DNA of 64,000 nucleotides from an uncultured Candidatus Thioglobus sp. Its GTDB lineage: Bacteria > Pseudomonadota > Gammaproteobacteria > PS1 > Pseudothioglobaceae. Positions 18,405 through 46,378 of this stretch are shown piece by piece. Where the stretch lies: positions 310,001 to 374,000 of the forward strand of contig CAJJCX010000001.1 of assembly GCA_905182815.1 (NCBI GenBank), read 5' to 3'. Each line of letters begins with the position of its first letter. Within the stretch, counting starts at the first letter, position 1. The translations under genes and the position numbers were made by a program. The notes beneath the pieces were generated by a model, which was given only the letters and a program-made list of their open reading frames with translations, ran no database searches and was not told the DNA's origin.

Positions 18405-18921
18405 ATGCAAAATTATTTTGAGTTATTTGATCTTGAAACATCATTCTTTATAGATGATGATCAGCTCAAATCTTCATATCGAAAAGAAATATCCAGGTTT
18501 CACCCGGATAAATATGCTAACAAAGAGTGAGTCTGAAAAGCTTCAGGCGCTTCAAAATACATCACTTTTAAATACAGCATTTACATCTCTTAAAACCCCA
18601 TTAAATCGTGCAAGTTATCTACTTAAGATGCAGGGTTTAGATCCATTTGATGAGAGAGATACAGTAATGAATCATGATTTTTTGATTTCTCAGATTGACT
18701 TACGTGAAGAGCTTGAAGTAATTGAGGAAGATCGAGATAGCTTAGGCTTAGAGGGCTTTTTGGAGCGAGTTGATCTTCATATCGAAGAGAATACAGAATC
18801 AATTTATAAGGCTTTTGAGCTTAAGAGTGACCTCATGGATATCAAAATGAATGTCAGAGAACTCAAGTTTTATGATCAGCTCTATAAAGAAGCTAATAAA
18901 TTAATGGACGAACTGCTCTAA
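18405..18921 (+). CDS. hscB: J-domain co-chaperone HscB (frameshifted)
   Basis: HscB delivers IscU to HscA and stimulates its ATPase. The true start is the ATG at 18405, giving MQNYFELFDLE and a J-domain with the HPD tripeptide in RFHPDKYANK near residue 35. The frame then hits TGA at about 18528; a single-base change near 18525 joins it to the downstream frame, which holds the C-terminal domain (LREELEVIEED and MNVRELKFYDQLYKEA). The total of 517 bases corresponds to about 171 residues, the normal size. An ATG at 18454 in the second frame is not the real start because it lacks the J-domain. Confidence 0.88.
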
Positions 18922-18932
18922 GGATTTAGTTT

Positions 18933-20780
18933 ATGGCGTTATTACAAATTTCAGAGCCCGGCCAATCCACTGCGCCACACCACCATAATTTGGCTTGTGG
19001 TATTGATTTAGGTACAACCAACTCTCTAGTGGCTAGCGTAATGAGCGGTGAGACAAAGCTAGTTTTAGATCAAAGCGATAGGGCAATCCTTCCATCTGTC
19101 GTTTATTGCGGCTCTAAGGAGCTTATCGTTGGTCATGAAGCGCTTGATTTGGCAATAAAAGATCCAACAAACACAATTCTATCAATTAAGCGTTTTATGG
19201 GAATTGGTTATAGTGAAGCAAAAGAAATTAAAAATTTACCCTATGATTTTGAAGATCATAAGGGCAGCGTTTTATTTAAAACTGCAATTGGCAGTCTCTC
19301 AGCTATTGAAATTTCAGCAAAAATTCTCTCTACCTTAAAGACTCGCGCCGAAGGGGCTCTTGGCGGTGAGCTAAAAGGTGCGGTAATTACTGTCCCTGCA
19401 TATTTCAATGATGCACAAAGACAATCTACTAAAGGACTCAGCCAAACTTGCAGGAATAAATGTCTTAAGGCTTCTTAATGAGCCAACAGCGGCTGCAATT
19501 GCCTACGGTTTGGAGTCAGGCGAAGAGGGTGTTCATGCGGTTTATGATCTTAGGTGGCGGTACGTTTGATATATCAATACTAAATTTCACTAAAGGAGTT
19601 TTTGAGGTCCTTTCAACGGGCGGTGACTCAAGTCTTGGCGGTGATGATTTTGATAACTTAATATTTGAAGACTGCACTCATTCACTAAATCTGACTAACT
19701 TAACTGCCTCACAAATCCAAACAATTAGAAAGCTCTCAAAGTCTGCAAAAGAAGAGCTATCAGTCAATGAGGCTGCTGAATTTTCTATTGAAGGTCAGCT
19801 CTATAAGATTACAAAATCTCATTTTGATGATATGAGTGAGCCTCTAATCAAAAGAACGTTACTTCTAACAAAGCGAGCCTTGAGAGATGCTGACGTTAAT
19901 ATATCTGACGTTAAAGAAGTTATTATGGTTGGTGGCTCAACTCGAATGAGCTCAATAAGAGAGCGAGTTGGAGAAGTCTTTAATAGGCCTGTTTTGTGCT
20001 CTATTAACCCTGATGAGGTTGTTGCCAAGGGCGCTGCAATTCAGGCAAACATATTGGTTGGTAATAAAAGTAGAGACGACGTATTACTGTTAGATGTTCT
20101 GCCTCTTTCTTTAGGTCTTGAGACTATGGGCGGATTGGTGGAGAAGGTGATTCATAGAAATACCACAATACCAATTACTAGGGCTCAAGAGTTTACGACC
20201 TATAAAGATGGCCAAACTGGAATGAGTATTCATGTATTTCAGGGTGAGCGCGAGCTTACAAAAGATTGTAGATCACTCGGACGTTTCGAGTTAAAAGGAA
20301 TCCCTCCAATGGTTGCCGGGAGAGCTCGCATTCTAGTTGAATTTCAAGTGGATGCAGATGGCTTGTTATCCGTTTCAGCTAAAGAGGAAACTTCTGGCGT
20401 TAAATCTGAAATAGCTATTAAGCCTTCATTTGGTCTTAGTGACTCAGATATGGAAAAAATGCTTAAAGACTCTGTTGTATTTGCCCAAGAAGATATTATC
20501 TTAAGGCAGCTTCAAGAGCAGAAGAGTTGATGCAACAAGGACAATCGAGGCAATTGATTCAGCCTTAGAGGCTGATAAAATTCTTCTAGATGAGGCGATG
20601 CTTAAAACCATCCTTCAGTCAAGAGACTATTTATCATCAATAATAGAGTCTGATGATGTCAGCTCTCATAAAAAATGCAACCCTAGATCTTGAAAAGTTA
20701 GCTCAAAATTTGTTGAGATGAGAATGAACAAGTCAATAATGAGCGCGATGAAAGGTCATAAAATTGATGAATTTAACTAA
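18933..20780 (+). CDS. hscA: Hsp70-type chaperone HscA (multiply frameshifted)
   Basis: HscA is the specialised Hsp70 of cluster transfer from IscU. Pieces in several frames assemble to about 615 residues, the family length: [12 protein letters not shown] near residue 23, [36 protein letters not shown], then the substrate-binding domain and a tail ending in KGHKIDEFN. Extra bases are seen near 19434 (ACTAAAGGACTC) and 19553, and more breaks near 20527, 20660 and 20715. The flanking genes are intact and the protein is otherwise well conserved, so I read the breaks as sequence errors, not gene loss. Confidence 0.85.
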
Positions 20781-20798
20781 TAACTATAAACTATCACT

Positions 20799-21137
20799 AT
20801 GCCTCAATTAATTATCCTGCCAAATGAAGAATTTTGCCCTGAGGGCATTGTTATTGAAACAAATACTGGAACGAGTGTTTGCAGAGCTTTGCTTGACAAC
20901 GGCATTGAAATTGAGCATGCCTGTGAAATGTCGAACGCCTGCACAACATGTCATATATACGTTCGAGAGGGTTTTGACTCAATTGAAGAGTCTGATGAAA
21001 TCGAAGATGACCTTCTTGATAAAGCCTGGGGGCTTGACCCTGACTCAAGGCTTTCTTGTCAGGCTATTGTTTCAGAAGAAGATTTAGTTATTGAAATACC
21101 AAGGTACACGATTAATCAGGTGTCAGAAAATCACTAA
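20799..21137 (+). CDS. fdx: isc-type [2Fe-2S] ferredoxin
   Basis: This 112-residue adrenodoxin-like ferredoxin donates electrons during cluster assembly. The ligand pattern is CEMSNACTTCHIYV (three Cys) plus the fourth Cys in RLSCQAIV near residue 88. It starts 18 bases after hscA. The small iscX gene that often follows is not found here; the next gene is an unrelated membrane protein. Confidence 0.95.
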   Translation: MPQLIILPNEEFCPEGIVIETNTGTSVCRALLDNGIEIEHACEMSNACTTCHIYVREGFDSIEESDEIEDDLLDKAWGLDPDSRLSCQAIVSEEDLVIEIPRYTINQVSENH

Positions 21138-21158
21138 ACTTTAAAAAAGAGAGTACTT

Positions 21159-21629
21159 ATGTTTTTAGATAAAATTAATGACGGTTTTTGGGCTTGTAAG
21201 CATACGTGGGCAAAAAGCGCCAATAATACAAAGTGGTGCCTCATTGGCTGTGCTACTGGTGAATTTGCGACATTGGCCTATTTCAGCTACTCTGGCATCA
21301 CGAGTGACCTCGTTCTTTATAGTACTGTTTGGTACTTATTTGCAGCGCTGCCTCTTATTAATGGCCTAATAACCAGTGTCATCTTGGAGACGATCATTCT
21401 TATCAGGTCAAATTTTGATTTTGCAAACGCCTTAAAAACGGCGCTAGGGATGTCTTTTATTTCAATGCTGATGATGGAAGTCGCGATGATGTTTACAGAC
21501 TTGGTTTTTACAGGCGGCGTCTTGGGCCTAAATTATTTTGCGATCCCTTTAATGCTTTTAGTCGGTTTTTTAGCGCCTTGGCCCTATAATTACTGGCGCT
21601 TAAAGAAGTTTAATAAGGCTTGTCACTAA
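21159..21629 (+). CDS. DUF4396-like integral membrane protein
   Basis: This 156-residue protein has about four hydrophobic segments and an N-terminal polar stretch with Cys and His. The C-terminal signature (LGMSFISMLMMEVAMM and WPYNYWRLKKFNKACH) resembles DUF4396 membrane proteins, whose function is unknown. It has its own ribosome site (AAAGAGAG) 21 bases after fdx and ends at a strong hairpin. Being last in the isc transcript may be coincidental. Confidence 0.6.
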   Translation: MFLDKINDGFWACKHTWAKSANNTKWCLIGCATGEFATLAYFSYSGITSDLVLYSTVWYLFAALPLINGLITSVILETIILIRSNFDFANALKTALGMSFISMLMMEVAMMFTDLVFTGGVLGLNYFAIPLMLLVGFLAPWPYNYWRLKKFNKACH

Positions 21630-21656
21630 CCTCTCCCAATAAAGTGAGAGGTTAGT
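21625..21656. terminator. bidirectional terminator hairpin
   Basis: ACTAACCTCTC and GAGAGGTTAGT form a perfect 11-pair stem with a 10-base loop, between the converging ends of the DUF4396-like gene and mrp. The T-tract is interrupted (TAATTT), so the efficiency is uncertain. Confidence 0.7.
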
Positions 21657-21670
21657 TAATTTATAATCTC

Positions 21671-22753
21671 TTACTCAATTGTAATCTTTGGAAAAGCCCC
21701 AATTGACTCGCTTTGAAGCGACAATGTCGCAGCAACATTCCTTGCAATTTCCTGATACATCATTGAGACTTTACTCTCTGGATCTTTAGCAACACTAGGA
21801 GTACCTTCATCAACATCAGTTCTGATTTCTAGTTTAAGTGGAAGCGCTCCAAGAAACTTCGTATTAGAGCTAGCCGCCATTCGCTTCGCCGCCGCCATTA
21901 CCAAAAATCTCTTCAGCGTGATTACAGTTTGAGCAAATATGAATCGACATATTTTCAACGATACCTAATATTGGAATATTTACTTTTTCGAACATCGCTA
22001 AACCTTTCTGAGCGTCAATAAGCGCAATGTCTTGAGGCGTTGTAACAATGACCGCTCCGCTCACAGGAATTTTTTGAGATAAGCGTTAGCTGAGTGTCAC
22101 CCGTTCCTGGTGGAAGGTCAACAATCATGTAGTCCACATCTTCCCATTCTGTGTTCTTTAAAAGCTGCTCTAAGGCCTGAGTTACCATCGGGCCGCGCCA
22201 TACCATAGGAGAGGCTTCTTCAACTAAAAACCCAATAGACATTGCCTGAATGCCATGCGCCAGAACTGGCTTCATATTACCTTCTTTAGACTCTTCGGGC
22301 CTAAGATCTTTAACGCCTAGCATGCGCGGCTGAGAGGGGCCATAAATGTCCGCATCGAGGAGGCAACGTTTGCGCCTTCAGACTGAAGAGAGAGCGCAAT
22401 GTTAACAGCAGTCGTTGACTTTCCAACGCCGCCCTTGCCTGAGGCAACAGCAATAATATTTTTAACTCCTGGCAGCGCAGGACTCCGCCTTGAACCGCAT
22501 AAGCCGCTATTTTTGACTTGATAGAAATATTTGAGTAATTAACGCCTTCCTTTGAGAGCGCTTCTTCGACTGAACCTTTAAGGTCTTCATGATAGTTAAT
22601 CGCAGGATATTTAAGTAGAAGTTCAACGTTCACTATCTCATCGTCAATAGAGATATTTTTAACGTTCTCAGATGAAACAAGGTCTAAGCCTGTATGAACA
22701 TCGATAACAGTGCTAAGAATTTTTTGTATTGAGTCTTCAGTTAAATTTGTCAA
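21671..22753 (-). CDS. apbC: Mrp/ApbC-family Fe-S cluster carrier ATPase (frameshifted)
   Basis: Mrp/ApbC proteins are P-loop ATPases that bind and transfer [4Fe-4S] clusters. The 1083-base span fits the family (about 360 residues). An N-terminal DUF59-like domain is followed in shifted frames by [49 protein letters not shown] (with the CxxC ligands) and a C-terminal part ending in GAFPKITIE. Breaks lie near 22475, 22363, 22075 and 21885. The gene is divergent from metG, as it is in E. coli. I take the breaks to be sequence errors. Confidence 0.85.
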
Positions 22754-22843
22754 TTTGGTGACCTCAGTCGGTAAAATAGCGCTATTTTATCGTACAACTA
22801 TCTTAGGAATCCTTAATAATATTGGGATTATTGATAACAAATT

Positions 22844-24487
22844 ATGACCAAACGAAGAATACTTGTTACTTCAGCTCTGCCTTATGCCAATGGTGAGATT
22901 CATTTAGGGCACTTGCTTGAATACATTCAGACAGATATCTGGGTTCGGTTTCAAAAAATGCAGGGTAATGAGTGTCATTATGTGTGCGCAGATGATGCCC
23001 ACGGAACCCCAATTATGCTCAAGGCAGATGAGATGGGGATTGATCCTGAAGAGTTAATTGCTGGGGTTAGTGAGCGCCACCAGGCAGACTTTAAAGATTT
23101 TAATGTTAACTTCAGTCAGTTCCACTCGACGCACTCTGAGGAGAATCGTCATTACTCAGAGCTGATCTATTCTCGCCTTAAAGATTCAGGCTTTATTAAG
23201 ACCCGCGTTATATCTCAGGCCTATGATCCCTGAAAAAGAAATGTTTCTACCAGACCGCTTTATTAAAGGCGAATGCCCTAAGTGCGGCGCTGATGATCAG
23301 TACGGTGATAACTGTGAGGTATGCGGCGCAACTTATTCAACAACAGAGCTTAAAAATGCTAGGTCGGTTGTTTCTGGCGCAGTCCCAATTGAAAAAGAGT
23401 CTGAGCACTATTTCTTTGATCTTGCCTCAGTTTGAACAGCAATTAAAGGAATGGACAAATGCTGGACACCTCCAAGATGAGGTCAGCAATAAATTAGCAG
23501 AATGGTTTGAGCAAGGCCTTCAGCAGTGGGATATTTCTAGAGATAAGCCTTACTTTGGCTTTCAAATTCCAGGAACTGAGGACAAGTACTTCTATGTCTG
23601 GCTTGATGCGCCAATTGGTTATATGGCAAGCTTTAAAAAGCTGTGTGATAACAGTGACCTTGAGTTTGATGACTTCTTTGCTAAAGGCTCTGATACTGAG
23701 CTTTATCACTTCATTGGTAAGGACATTGTTTACTTCCATGCGCTATTTTGGCCTGCCACATTAATGGGCTCAAACTTTAGAACGCCGAACGCAATCTTTG
23801 CTCATGGCTTCTTATCGGTCAACGGTCAAAAGATGAGTAAATCACGTGGAACCTTTATTCAGGCAAGGACTTACTTAGAGACTCTTAATCCAGAGTGTCT
23901 TCGTTATTACTATGCCTATAAGCTATCTTCTAAGATTGATGACATTGACTTAAACCTTGAAGACTTTAAGCAGCGCGTTAATTCAGACATTGTGGGCAAG
24001 GTCGTAAACATCGCCTCAAGAAGCGCTTCTTCGTTGTTAAGAAGTATGATAAAGAGCTGTCCGCTCAATGCATCGAGCAGGAGCTCTATGATGAGTTTGT
24101 AGCCGCTGGCCCTAGAAATTGCAGCACATTATGAGGCTAGAAACTTTGGACACGCTATGCGCTCAATTATGAAGCTTGCGGACAAAGCAAATCAGTACAT
24201 TGATGAGAAGAAGCCTTGGCAGCTTGCAAAAGAAGAGGGTAAGGCGCAAGAGGTCCACGAGGTAACGTCTCTAGCGATTAACCTGTTTAGAGTTTTGATG
24301 ACGTATCTTAAGCCCGTGCTTCCAGAGATGGCTAAGAGTTCAGAGGAGTTTCTTAATATTGACTCACTGAACTGGGATGACTATTAAGAGCCCACTGACA
24401 AGTCATCACATCAATAAATTTAAACCGCTAATGACTCGTATTGAAGATGAGCAATTAGAGGCAATGATCGAGTCGTCTAAAGTATAA
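22844..24487 (+). CDS. metG: methionyl-tRNA synthetase (multiply frameshifted)
   Basis: MetG charges tRNA-Met. The pieces assemble to a core enzyme of about 547 residues: [15 protein letters not shown] (HIGH-type motif), a zinc domain with CPKCG and [14 protein letters not shown] near 23830-23860, and an anticodon-binding domain ending in [10 protein letters not shown] at the stop 24485-24487. Breaks are near 23230 (an extra C), 23421 (an extra G), 24030, 24105 and 24387. It lacks the C-terminal tRNA-binding EMAP-like domain of E. coli MetG, as many bacterial MetGs do. An essential gene with five breaks strongly suggests sequence errors. Confidence 0.9.
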
Positions 24488-42134: not shown

Positions 42135-43769
42135 TTGAAACACTTATACAAAATGCATTCAATAGGTTTGCAAAAAATAATTCCAGGTGTGCTTTTGAGC
42201 TTTGTTGTTACATTGGGCTTCTTTAGCCAATCGTCAATAGCTGCAAGTCACAAGGTTCTAAACTTAACAATACTTCATACAAATGATTTTCATGCTCGTT
42301 TTAGGCCTATTAGTAAGTACGATAATAATTGCTCTGCTGAGAACAATGCTGAAGGAAAATGTTTTGGCGGCTCCGCTCGTCTAATTACAGCAATTGAGGA
42401 TGCACGCTCAAGGCATGAAAATACAGTACTTTTAGACGGTGGTGATCAGTTCCAAGGGACTCTTTTCTATAACCTTTATAAGGGTAAGGTTGCAGCAGAA
42501 ATGATGAATAAACTTGGTTACGATGGAATGACTGTTGGAAACCATGAGTTTGATGATGGCCCTGAAACCTTAAGAGCATTTATGGATGCGGTTAACTTTC
42601 CAGTGCTTATGGCAAATGCAAATGTTGATATGGAGCCAGAACTTAAGGGTAAGCTTCAAAAATCAACGGTCATAGAGAGAAGTGGTCATAAAATTGGACT
42701 GATAGGCCTTGTTACAGAGGACGTTGTTGATATTTCGAGTCCTGGTGATAATATTATATTCACGGATGCTATTACTGCTGCGCAAGCTGAGGTCGATTCT
42801 TTGACAGCAGCTGGAGTTGGCATAATCATACTTATGTCACATTCTTCATACGAAATTGACAAAGAAATTGCAGCCAACACAACAGGTATTGATGTAATTG
42901 TTGGTGGTCATGATAATGCTTATCTATCAAACATTAGCGATAGAGCAAAAGGACCTTATCCAACCGTTGTTAATGGCACTCAAATTGTACAAGCTTATGC
43001 CTATGGTAAATACTTAGGTGAGCTCTCAGTTGTCTTTGATGATGAAGGTGAGGTTATCTCTGCAACAGGTGAGCCAATTACGATTGACGGCTCTGTCAAT
43101 GAGAATAGTCAAATAGTTGCTCGCTTAGATGAATTAGAGAAGCCAATAACAGATCTTAAAGAAACTCTAGTTGGAAACGTTTCTAGCTCTTTAAATGGCG
43201 ATAGAGCTGTTTGCCGAGTTCAAGAATGTGATATGGGTAATATGATAACGGACGCAATGAGAGCGGCAGGAATGGAAAAAGGTTATTCGATTGCTCTTGC
43301 AAACTCAGGAGGCATTCGAGCCTCTCTTGATGCTGGGCAGGTTACATTGGGCGAGATAATGACTATCCTTCCATTTCAAAACACAATGTCAACCTTCAAG
43401 GTTACGGGTAAGCAGTTACTTGCAGCGATTGAAAATGGTGTGAGCCAGGTTGAGGATGGCTCAGGTCGATTCCCTCAAGTTTCTGGAATGCGCTTCTCAT
43501 TTGATGCGTCAAAACCTGCTAATGAAAGGGTGACTTCAATTGAAATCCAAGAGAGTAATGGGTCTTTTAGTGCTCTGAATCTATACGGTACATACGGTAT
43601 GGTTTCTAATAACTTTATTCGTGCTGGTGGTGATGGTTATAAAATGTTCAGGTCTGCAACAGATATCTATGACTTTGGTCCAGATCTAGCCGATGTTGTT
43701 GTCGATTATATTAAGGCAAATCCAGGTTACTCAGGTTTCACTGATAATCGAATTACGCAAGTTAAGTAA
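42135..43769 (+). CDS. secreted 5'-nucleotidase / 2',3'-cyclic phosphodiesterase (UshA-like)
   Basis: This 544-residue periplasmic enzyme has a signal peptide (hydrophobic core about residues 18-33, cleavage after SIAA near 37) and the metallophosphatase motifs LHTNDFHARF, DGGDQFQG and GNHEFDDG. Its C-terminal nucleotide-binding domain holds GNMITDAMRAAG and ANSGGIRASL. It releases phosphate and nucleosides from extracellular nucleotides. A strong terminator follows. The pseudouridine genes nearby also fit nucleoside salvage. Confidence 0.92.
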   Translation: MKHLYKMHSIGLQKIIPGVLLSFVVTLGFFSQSSIAASHKVLNLTILHTNDFHARFRPISKYDNNCSAENNAEGKCFGGSARLITAIEDARSRHENTVLLDGGDQFQGTLFYNLYKGKVAAEMMNKLGYDGMTVGNHEFDDGPETLRAFMDAVNFPVLMANANVDMEPELKGKLQKSTVIERSGHKIGLIGLVTEDVVDISSPGDNIIFTDAITAAQAEVDSLTAAGVGIIILMSHSSYEIDKEIAANTTGIDVIVGGHDNAYLSNISDRAKGPYPTVVNGTQIVQAYAYGKYLGELSVVFDDEGEVISATGEPITIDGSVNENSQIVARLDELEKPITDLKETLVGNVSSSLNGDRAVCRVQECDMGNMITDAMRAAGMEKGYSIALANSGGIRASLDAGQVTLGEIMTILPFQNTMSTFKVTGKQLLAAIENGVSQVEDGSGRFPQVSGMRFSFDASKPANERVTSIEIQESNGSFSALNLYGTYGMVSNNFIRAGGDGYKMFRSATDIYDFGPDLADVVVDYIKANPGYSGFTDNRITQVK

Positions 43770-43774
43770 TTTTT

Positions 43775-43805
43775 AAAAGGGCCCTAATAGGGCCCTTTTT
43801 TTTAT
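43775..43805 (+). terminator. intrinsic terminator after the 5'-nucleotidase gene
   Basis: AAAAGGGCCC and GGGCCCTTTT pair over a five-base loop, followed by a T-tract. It starts six bases after the stop codon. Confidence 0.92.
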
Positions 43806-43933: not shown

Positions 43934-43962
43934 TGTTAATTTAATTTATTTAGGGAGTTCTT

Positions 43963-44692
43963 ATGAGCGACACGAGTTTATTTTTACAAGCTGGCGATTT
44001 TGTTGGCGTTTCATTCTGGATAGTGTCTGTGGCGATGGTTGCTGCTACAGTATTTTTCTTTTATGAAGGTATGGCAGTAAATAAAGAGTGGAGACTGTCA
44101 ATGACAGTTGCAGGTTTGGTAACGTTGGTTGCTGCTGTCCACTATTATTACATGAGAGATTACTGGGTAGCTTCGGTTATCGCAGGAGCTCCTGATTCTC
44201 CAATCGTATATAGATATATCGACTGGTTAATTACAGTGCCATTATTGATGATTGAATTCTTCATCATTCTTGAAAGCAGTAGGCGCTTCAGTATCAACAA
44301 ACTCTTTTTGGAGATTGTTAGTAGGTACTCTAGTCATGCTTATTGGTGGATTCGCAGGTGAGGCGCATTTAATATCCGCTTCTATGGGATTTGTCATCGG
44401 TATGATAGGTTGGGCAATCATCATCTGGGAAATCTTCGGTGGTGAGGCTAGTAAAGCAGCTGAGGCAAATGCAAGCGTAAAGTCTGCATTCAATGCTCTT
44501 AGAATTATTGTTTTAGTAGGCTGGGCTATTTACCCTCTTGGATATGTCTTCGGATATATGATGGGAAGTGTCGATGCAGGAACTTTAAACATTGTTTATA
44601 ACCTTGCAGATTTTGTTAACAAAATCTTATTTGGTTTAATTATTTGGAATGTTGCAGTGCAATCAAGCGCAGCTGTCAGCAAGAAGAAGTAA
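43963..44692 (+). CDS. proteorhodopsin, green-tuned proton pump (one frameshift)
   Basis: This seven-helix retinal protein pumps protons out in light. The frame breaks near 44272; removing one G (ATTCTTGAAAGC) joins it into a 242-residue protein. In the corrected numbering the proton acceptor is Asp87 in RYIDWL, the donor Glu98, the tuning residue Leu95 (green-absorbing), a conserved His60, and the retinal Lys220 in FVNKILFGLIIW. No signal peptide is seen. No carotenoid or retinal-synthesis gene is in the window. An inverted repeat precedes it and a terminator follows. Confidence 0.93.
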
Positions 44693-44714: not shown

Positions 44715-44745
44715 AAAAAGCCCTCTTCATTGAGGGCTTTTTTTT
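44715..44745 (+). terminator. intrinsic terminator after proteorhodopsin
   Basis: AAAAGCCCTC and GAGGGCTTTT pair over TTCATT, followed by a T-tract, about 23 bases after the stop codon. Confidence 0.92.
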
Positions 44746-44771: not shown

Positions 44772-44891
44772 CTACAACTTATTCCTTCGACACCTTTCAC
44801 TGCAGTAGAGGACGTTCTCCCAGTCTTTACGCCATTTTTTTCTCCAGGTGAAGGGCTTATTGCAAGTTTTACAAATCTTCTCTAATTTCAT
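44772..44891 (-). CDS. DUF2256 mini-protein
   Basis: A 39-residue gene reads from the ATG at 44891: it has CKTC near residue 7, [12 protein letters not shown], then YCSERCRR. This CxxC...CxxxC pattern with the Trp/Lys/Arg core is that of DUF2256, a tiny putative zinc-binding family often found beside cryptochrome or photolyase genes. Its ATG overlaps the TGA of the photolyase-related gene (ATGA), so the two are translationally coupled. Its function is unknown. Confidence 0.85.
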
Positions 44892-46378
44892 CGAGTATGG
44901 GCCTTAATAAATTTTTCTGCCTCGCCAAAGATAAGCTCTTTCCTTTCTTGTGACATTCTGTCTAATAGTTTGGGTTGAAGGGATAATCTAGGGTTAGATT
45001 CATAGAACTTTCTATTTTTTTGAATGAACCTCCAATAAAGTCCGTCAACTGCATTGCACCATTCACCTTTTTTGTAGTTACTCATTTTAAGTAGGTAATT
45101 TGAGCCACAGGTGTAAGGCTTGGTTGACATTAGGCCGCCATCAGAATAGGTTGCCATTCCGAACACATTTGGAACCATAACCCACTCGGAAGAGTCAATA
45201 TACATCTCCATAAACCACCTGTATATTTCTTTGGGATCAATTTCGCAAAGATTCATCAGGTTGCTTATGACCATAAGTCTAGGTATGTGATGGTTGTATC
45301 CATCTTGTATTGCAGTAATGATAGAATCATCTAAAGGCGCTATTCCAGTTGAGCCTTCGTACCAGCTTGAAGTTAACTTGCCAGTATGTCCCCAATAGTT
45401 TTTATTTGATTGGTAGTCACCTTTTGTTTGATATACGCCTCTGATAAACTCACGCCAACCTAAGACTTGCCTTACAAAGCCTTCCAATGAGTTCATGGGG
45501 ATTTGATAAGTATCAGCGCTATCTAGTAGGGTTTGAATAACTTTTTGAGGAGACAAAAGCCCTATATTCATTGAGGCGCTGATGCAGCTATGAAACAAAA
45601 AGTTTTTGCCTTCTAGCATTGCGTCTTCATAAATACCAAAATTAGTCATTCTCTGCTTTAAAAAATCTTCAAATTGACTCTCAGCATCACGTCGATTAAC
45701 AGGAAACCATGGATTATCAAGGCTTCCAGGGTGGTCATTAAAATGCTGCATAATGAGGCTACAAACTTCATCATGGTGTAACGATTGCTTAGTATTTGGC
45801 AGCTCAGGAATCAAAGTATTAGCAGGAATTTTTTTTCGATTTTCTGCATCAAAGGACCATTTACCGCCCAAAGGCTTGTTGTCTTCATCCATCAAAATGT
45901 TGAATTTTTTCCTTGCGTGCTGATAGAAATTCCCCATTCTAAGGGCTTTTTTATCCTTCATTAGTGAATAAAGCTCTTCCCTAGAAAACAGAAACATTGG
46001 CGACTGGTGAACTTTAAACTTAACATTACTCTTAGTTAAGCCTTCAAGTAATTCAGTTTCAAAGGTCTTGTCTTCAATTTCAAATACATTTACCTGCTCT
46101 ATTTCATTATCCAAAACGTAATCAACAAGACACTCTAGATAAGATTGATTTTCAATTCGATCATTTAAGGCAAAGTATCCAACAGAGATGCCCAAAGACT
46201 CAAGCTCTTCTTTGTACTCACGCATTGCACATAGAAACAAGTAAAGCTTGAGTTTGTGATGTTTTTCATAGCTGCAAAGATCAAAGTCTTCTGCCATAAA
46301 GACCTCATTACAGCCCAGCTCTTGAAGTAATTTGGGCTCAAAGAGTTGGTTTCCTAGAATTACAAACATGCTTTTCAT
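44888..46378 (-). CDS. photolyase-related protein (DPRP/FeS-BCP family)
   Basis: This 496-residue flavoprotein resembles prokaryotic (6-4) photolyases of the PhrB type: an N-terminal ILGNQLF Rossmann domain, [12 protein letters not shown] and [18 protein letters not shown] in the FAD domain. PhrB carries four Cys for a [4Fe-4S] cluster. Here the Cys in LMNLCEI and [10 protein letters not shown] are kept, but the MSDYCxxC pair reads MSNYKKGE, so two ligands are missing. It may repair UV lesions or sense light. It faces proteorhodopsin and overlaps the DUF2256 gene. Confidence 0.88.

Follow-up and report, generated by a model that had tools for sequence, protein, structure and literature searches.

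We found that the gene at 43963 to 44692 on the plus strand of the window, i.e., the whole 64,000-nucleotide stretch of DNA analyzed here, is very probably an ordinary green-absorbing, proton-pumping proteorhodopsin (PR) gene of Candidatus Pseudothioglobus; the living cell would have an unbroken copy, and the extra base that interrupts it here would be an assembly error. The rhodopsin is a new ortholog of an already known PR kind and is ordinary overall; the lack of known retinal genes across the genus and the co-occurrence of PR with two genes next to it here are modest extras.

Two pieces matching the Pfam family PF01036 (Bac_rhodopsin), in different frames, jointly make up the gene (Table 1), and the intact ortholog in genome G002 covers profile positions 3 to 223. 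The sequence-only reading had described a green-type PR interrupted by a single base, and one extra G at 44272 does account for the change of frame. With this G removed, Asp87, Leu95, Glu98, and Lys220 all fall at the numbers given to them in that reading. Asp87, Thr91, and Glu98 form the DTE motif, Lys220 is the retinal-binding lysine, and Leu95 occupies the tuning site; His60 is also present. The gene thus has the Bac_rhodopsin domain over its whole length, the DTE motif with the lysine, and the tuning-site Leu of a PR, and as assembled fails only to keep one uninterrupted frame. Leu at the spectral tuning site denotes green absorption, which is established knowledge and is also stated in the accessible text of PMC10308929. 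We infer proton pumping and color from the family: retinal on Lys220 would absorb green light, the Schiff-base proton would then pass to Asp87, and Glu98 would reprotonate the Schiff base as protons leave the cell. Among solved structures, green PR (PDB 2l6x and 8cnk) and PDB 9r22 ("microbial rhodopsin") are of the same family with the same DTE-Leu residues; the window gene differs from them in being broken by one base as assembled and in coming from a genus without known retinal genes. The G002 ortholog, 97.1% identical to the window gene in DNA, matched 9r22 at an E value of 1.3e-135 and 2l6x at 6.3e-71, and the alignment suggests that 9r22 may itself come from Pseudothioglobus. The best matches to this ortholog in genome_contigs were Candidatus Pseudothioglobus aerophilus (L026, 100%), a SUP05-cluster MAG, Candidatus Thioglobus, and "PS1 clade" records; the genus assignment rests on these matches.

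A terminator-like hairpin lies 3′ of the PR gene, as the sequence-only reading had noted, and the 3-kb region holds 5 such sites versus 1.8 expected. A sigma-70-type scan gave no plus-strand promoter-like site upstream of the PR gene, and promoter-like sites in the 3-kb region were not above chance (8 versus 10.4 expected).

Table 1. Features of the PR locus (positions within the window)
Feature	Position	Strand	Evidence
5′-Nucleotidase-like protein, upstream of the rhodopsin	42135..43769	+	PF02872, PF00149
Terminator-like hairpin 3′ of the 5′-nucleotidase gene, before PR	43775..43799	+	Terminator scan
Likely ribosome-binding site, AGGGAG, preceding the start codon ATG (43963)	43952..43957	+	Read from the sequence; inference
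PF01036 piece 1	43963-44361	+	Profile 3-99/224, E 1.3e-19
PR, first part, residues 1-103, including Asp87, Thr91, Leu95, Glu98	43963..44271	+	Pfam, alignment, residue numbering
PF01036 piece 2	44252-44692	+	Profile 95-222/224, E 3.5e-26
Frame-shifting extra G	44272..44272	+	Alignment with relatives
PR, second part, shifted frame, Lys220 (codon at 44621)	44273..44692	+	Pfam, residue numbering
Terminator-like hairpin 3′ of the PR gene	44715..44742	+	Terminator scan
39-aa DUF2256 protein	44772..44891 (coding 44775-44891 plus stop)	-	PF10013, E 5.6e-18
Photolyase-related FAD protein (DPRP, FAD_binding_7)	44888..46378	-	PF04244, PF03441

PR was found in 11 of the 29 genomes of the genus, the window's own genome (G000; 1.32 Mb, four contigs, 76.8% complete) included, and two of the bearers, G006 and G028, are single contigs that are 99% complete. 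In a DNA alignment of 15 rows, the extra G was absent from all 14 rows other than the window's, five of which are exact re-fetches, so that they represent nine distinct relatives (9/9). The tenth PR-bearing relative, G028, stood outside the alignment and has a frame that is open and without stops; an open PR frame of 237 to 252 aa is present in 10/10 PR-bearing relatives in the genus. The dN/dS values against G002 were 0.004/0.128 before the break and 0.009/0.102 after it, and those against G009 were 0.013/0.379 and 0.024/0.211, respectively. By these values the rhodopsin gene appears to have been constrained until very recently, or to be so still, and an old pseudogene is ruled out by the low dN/dS on either side of the break. 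Low dN/dS alone cannot separate an error from a fresh mutation, since a recent real mutation leaves the same low values. The constraint on both halves would also suit programmed frameshifting, in which the full protein is made from the broken gene on purpose, but the base, or any need for a change of frame, is found in 0/9 distinct relatives, making this exceedingly improbable; a split-but-working rhodopsin was rejected on the same count.

To place the break in the context of the assembly, we compared the window's contig C1 (404,317 bp) in both directions with G006, a single-contig genome, using mechanical ORFs and tblastn. Frameshift breaks numbered 60 across 357 genes of C1 when set against G006 and 5 across 377 genes in reverse. 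The 60 breaks, 14 of them inside the window, hit 43 distinct genes. When 20 of the 43 were submitted to NCBIfam naming, 12 gained a family at an E value below 1e-30, TrpS, GatB, DnaK, HscA, SucA, and AroA among them; the matches of MsbA (3 breaks), PntB, and the PRK10788 peptidylprolyl isomerase were below the curated cut-offs of their models. Like the PR break, those in TrpS and GatB are isolated ones. A cell cannot live without tryptophanyl-tRNA synthetase, and the second-copy search, which covered TrpS, returned the broken pair of pieces as the sole TrpS match in the whole own genome; the isolated TrpS break must therefore be an error, or else be tolerated because it lies near the end of the protein (residue 346 of 399).

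The clustering of the breaks, which leaves at least one in 27 of 41 ten-kb bins, counts against an error at 44272, as does the finding that, among the genes shared with G006, C1 positions 339,631 to 391,008 hold no break besides that of PR. Nine of the breaks fall within 6 kb at window positions 18524 to 24393 (HscA, MetG, and neighbors), a low-quality stretch of the assembly. MetG, broken twice in the window, was set aside as evidence of error because its G006 yardstick may itself be split: the 401-aa ORF of G006 covers only positions 3 to 398 of a model of 676 residues, and a second ORF, of 149 aa, overlaps the end of the first. The methionine–tRNA ligase at G006:C1:952967-954608 (L165), made up of these overlapping ORFs, may be split or frameshifted. 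Internal stops in the tblastn matches were also considered as a second sign of decay and rejected; the unfiltered counts of 102 on the own contig and 7 in the reverse test shrank to 5 versus 3 once 6 of 12 identical residues were required on each side. The raw excess is taken to reflect matches running out of frame beyond the breaks.

Judged from these comparisons, the break at 44272 most likely reflects an error, because the contig is dense in indels, near-indispensable genes including the only TrpS found are broken in it, and intact copies of PR exist in 10/10 PR-bearing relatives of the genus. This agrees with the earlier suspicion that the frameshift is probably an error, although the surrounding stretch is otherwise clean. 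Two observations favor a recent loss-of-function mutation in the strain, which would leave a second rhodopsin, described below, as its only intact one: in 30,285 bp aligned to the closest contig, G002:C47, no coding indel except the one in PR departs from a multiple of three, and PR, being absent from 18/29 genomes of the genus, is dispensable. Such a mutation is nevertheless quite unlikely, given isolated breaks of the same kind in GatB and the only TrpS found on the same contig, a PR that is intact in every PR-bearing relative, and flanks of the break that show no decay. A single-base break in this assembly should accordingly not be taken for a pseudogene.

The second rhodopsin, absent from the sequence-only reading, is intact and lies outside the window, ~270 kb from the window gene, at G000:C1:83263-83970 (L001:1462-2169). 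Its motif is DTL, its tuning site is occupied by Gln, and the retinal lysine is present; the gene next to it encodes an SPFH/Band_7 domain (PF01145). Residues 1 to 230 match PDB 9r21, a "flotillin-associated rhodopsin," at an E value of 1.8e-133. Flotillin-associated rhodopsins (PMC10308929; PDB 9r21 and 9r23) carry, according to the accessible text of that paper, a DTT, DTL, or DNI motif and stand next to a flotillin gene; the second rhodopsin is alike in its DTL motif, Gln, and SPFH/Band_7 neighbor and, by sequence, is of this published kind. The window gene was rejected as another member because of its DTE motif and different neighbor. Flotillin-associated rhodopsins were found in 5/29 genomes of the genus. 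In the accessible text of PMC10308929, genomes with such a rhodopsin always had PR as well; here, no PR was found in G014 (completeness 77%, contamination 6%) or G019 (94% and 2%, respectively), two of the five. In the IscS tree, G019 groups with G001 and G026, both PR-less. Its flotillin-associated rhodopsin (G019:C2:48774-49409; L014) has a DSL motif.

The sequence-only reading had also reported that no retinal genes lie nearby. This holds for the whole own genome at its 76.8% completeness, where the check for blh and crt genes gave no Blh or phytoene synthase match, and it extends to all 29 genus genomes searched: PF15461 (Blh), PF00494 (phytoene synthase), and PF03055 (RPE65-type oxygenase) were each found in 0/29 genomes. 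As to sensitivity, the PF15461 search found its family in 14/369 genomes of the class and in 0/14 named controls, the PF00494 search in 11/58 relatives (all 11 outside the family) and 7/14 controls, and the PF03055 search in 2/14 controls. Since matches to these marker families are missing from all 29 genomes, the two 99% complete PR bearers included, retinal should come from outside or be made in an unknown way. We infer that it is probably scavenged, in which case the pump would depend on the surrounding water for retinal or a precursor.

The available text of PMC7734400 describes rhodopsin bearers without known retinal genes, such as SAR86, Aurantimicrobium, and others; here, likewise, the pump gene is present and blh is absent, and the genus differs from those cases in additionally lacking phytoene synthase (29/29). 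One of them, Aurantimicrobium minutum, produces retinal although it has neither blh nor diox1 (PMC7734400, same text), a precedent for a cell with an unknown retinal route of its own instead of scavenging, and a failed match to known families leaves room for such a route. It is rather unlikely here, however, because the phytoene synthase family is found in 0/29 genomes, and with no such match, the usual route should yield no beta-carotene either. This alternative bears only on the retinal supply. At Station ALOHA, the accessible part of PMC5864233 reports, retinal genes become scarcer with depth, and below 200 m the PR-bearing bacteria are dominated by SAR11 and SUP05. In the literature seen in part on PR or retinal in Pseudothioglobus, Thioglobus singularis, SUP05, and ARCTIC96BD-19, we found no statement on the retinal genes of the genus, and the accessible text of PMC10308929 nowhere mentions "blh." The pattern suggests that this genus, widespread in the ocean and equipped with light pumps, relies on others for the pigment.

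On the other side of the PR gene lies the light-active flavoprotein gene that the sequence-only reading had named; it encodes a DPRP/FAD_binding_7 protein on the opposite strand. Between the two sits a small DUF2256 gene that had gone unmentioned, and by the coordinates, the DPRP gene ends in a stop codon that overlaps the DUF2256 start codon. DPRP was found in 12/29 genomes of the genus, after two of the 14 genomes first listed (G015 and G022) were dropped as partial and only 26 to 27% identical. DUF2256 was also found in 12/29, the match in G018 being partial (29/39 residues). Both occur in 11/11 PR-bearing genomes, and outside these DUF2256 occurs in 1/18, as the partial match. Of the 14 genomes with a completeness of 89% or more, 7 carry PR, DPRP, and DUF2256 together and 7 carry none of the three. 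The Fisher value for the co-occurrence is 3.5e-7, ignoring shared ancestry, and in the IscS tree the clustering of PR is only modest. A simple clade of PR-bearing species was not supported by this tree, which includes 18/29 genomes, some of the PR-less ones only 53 to 67% complete: the PR label needs 4 changes, a value matched by 32/500 label shuffles.

The pump, the photolyase relative, and DUF2256 thus mark the same genomes, which upholds one part of the earlier idea of a "small light-related cluster." The physical cluster itself did not hold generally, as the order nucleotidase-PR-DPRP occurs in only four genomes (G000, G002, G009, and G023). In eight others (G003, G006, G007, G010, G013, G020, G025, and G028), the nucleotidase and DPRP genes are adjacent without PR between them; PR lies elsewhere in seven of these eight, and none was found in G020 (65% complete). 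In G028, ~4 kb separate DUF2256 from DPRP, and PR lies far away from it. A tentative and somewhat doubtful reading is that PR, the FeS-type photolyase relative, and DUF2256 form a set for sunlit water that is gained and lost together, with the pump running wholly on scavenged retinal, and that the flotillin-associated rhodopsins are independent of this set, occurring even in a clade with neither the pump nor known retinal genes, which would favor a retinal-free role for them. DUF2256 was rejected as a general neighbor of PR: among the best 80 of 178 PR loci in genome_contigs, some of them cut by contig ends, the strict pattern occurred in 8/80, namely in the eight closest, Pseudothioglobus-like loci (L026 to L033), and in 0/72 others. 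A literature search found no paper pairing DUF2256 with a photolyase.

The DPRP protein has both the DPRP (PF04244) and the FAD-binding (PF03441) domains of FeS-type photolyases/cryptochromes, and its closest solved chains, 9hnk, 5kcm, 4dja, and 3zxs, are PhrB/CryB-type FeS photolyases/cryptochromes. Against 9hnk, it shows a 10-residue alignment gap near the Cys-x-x-Cys loop of FeS-type photolyases, which helps hold the iron-sulfur cluster. The same short form of the loop was found in 12/12 DPRP copies of the genus that reach it (L212 to L223).
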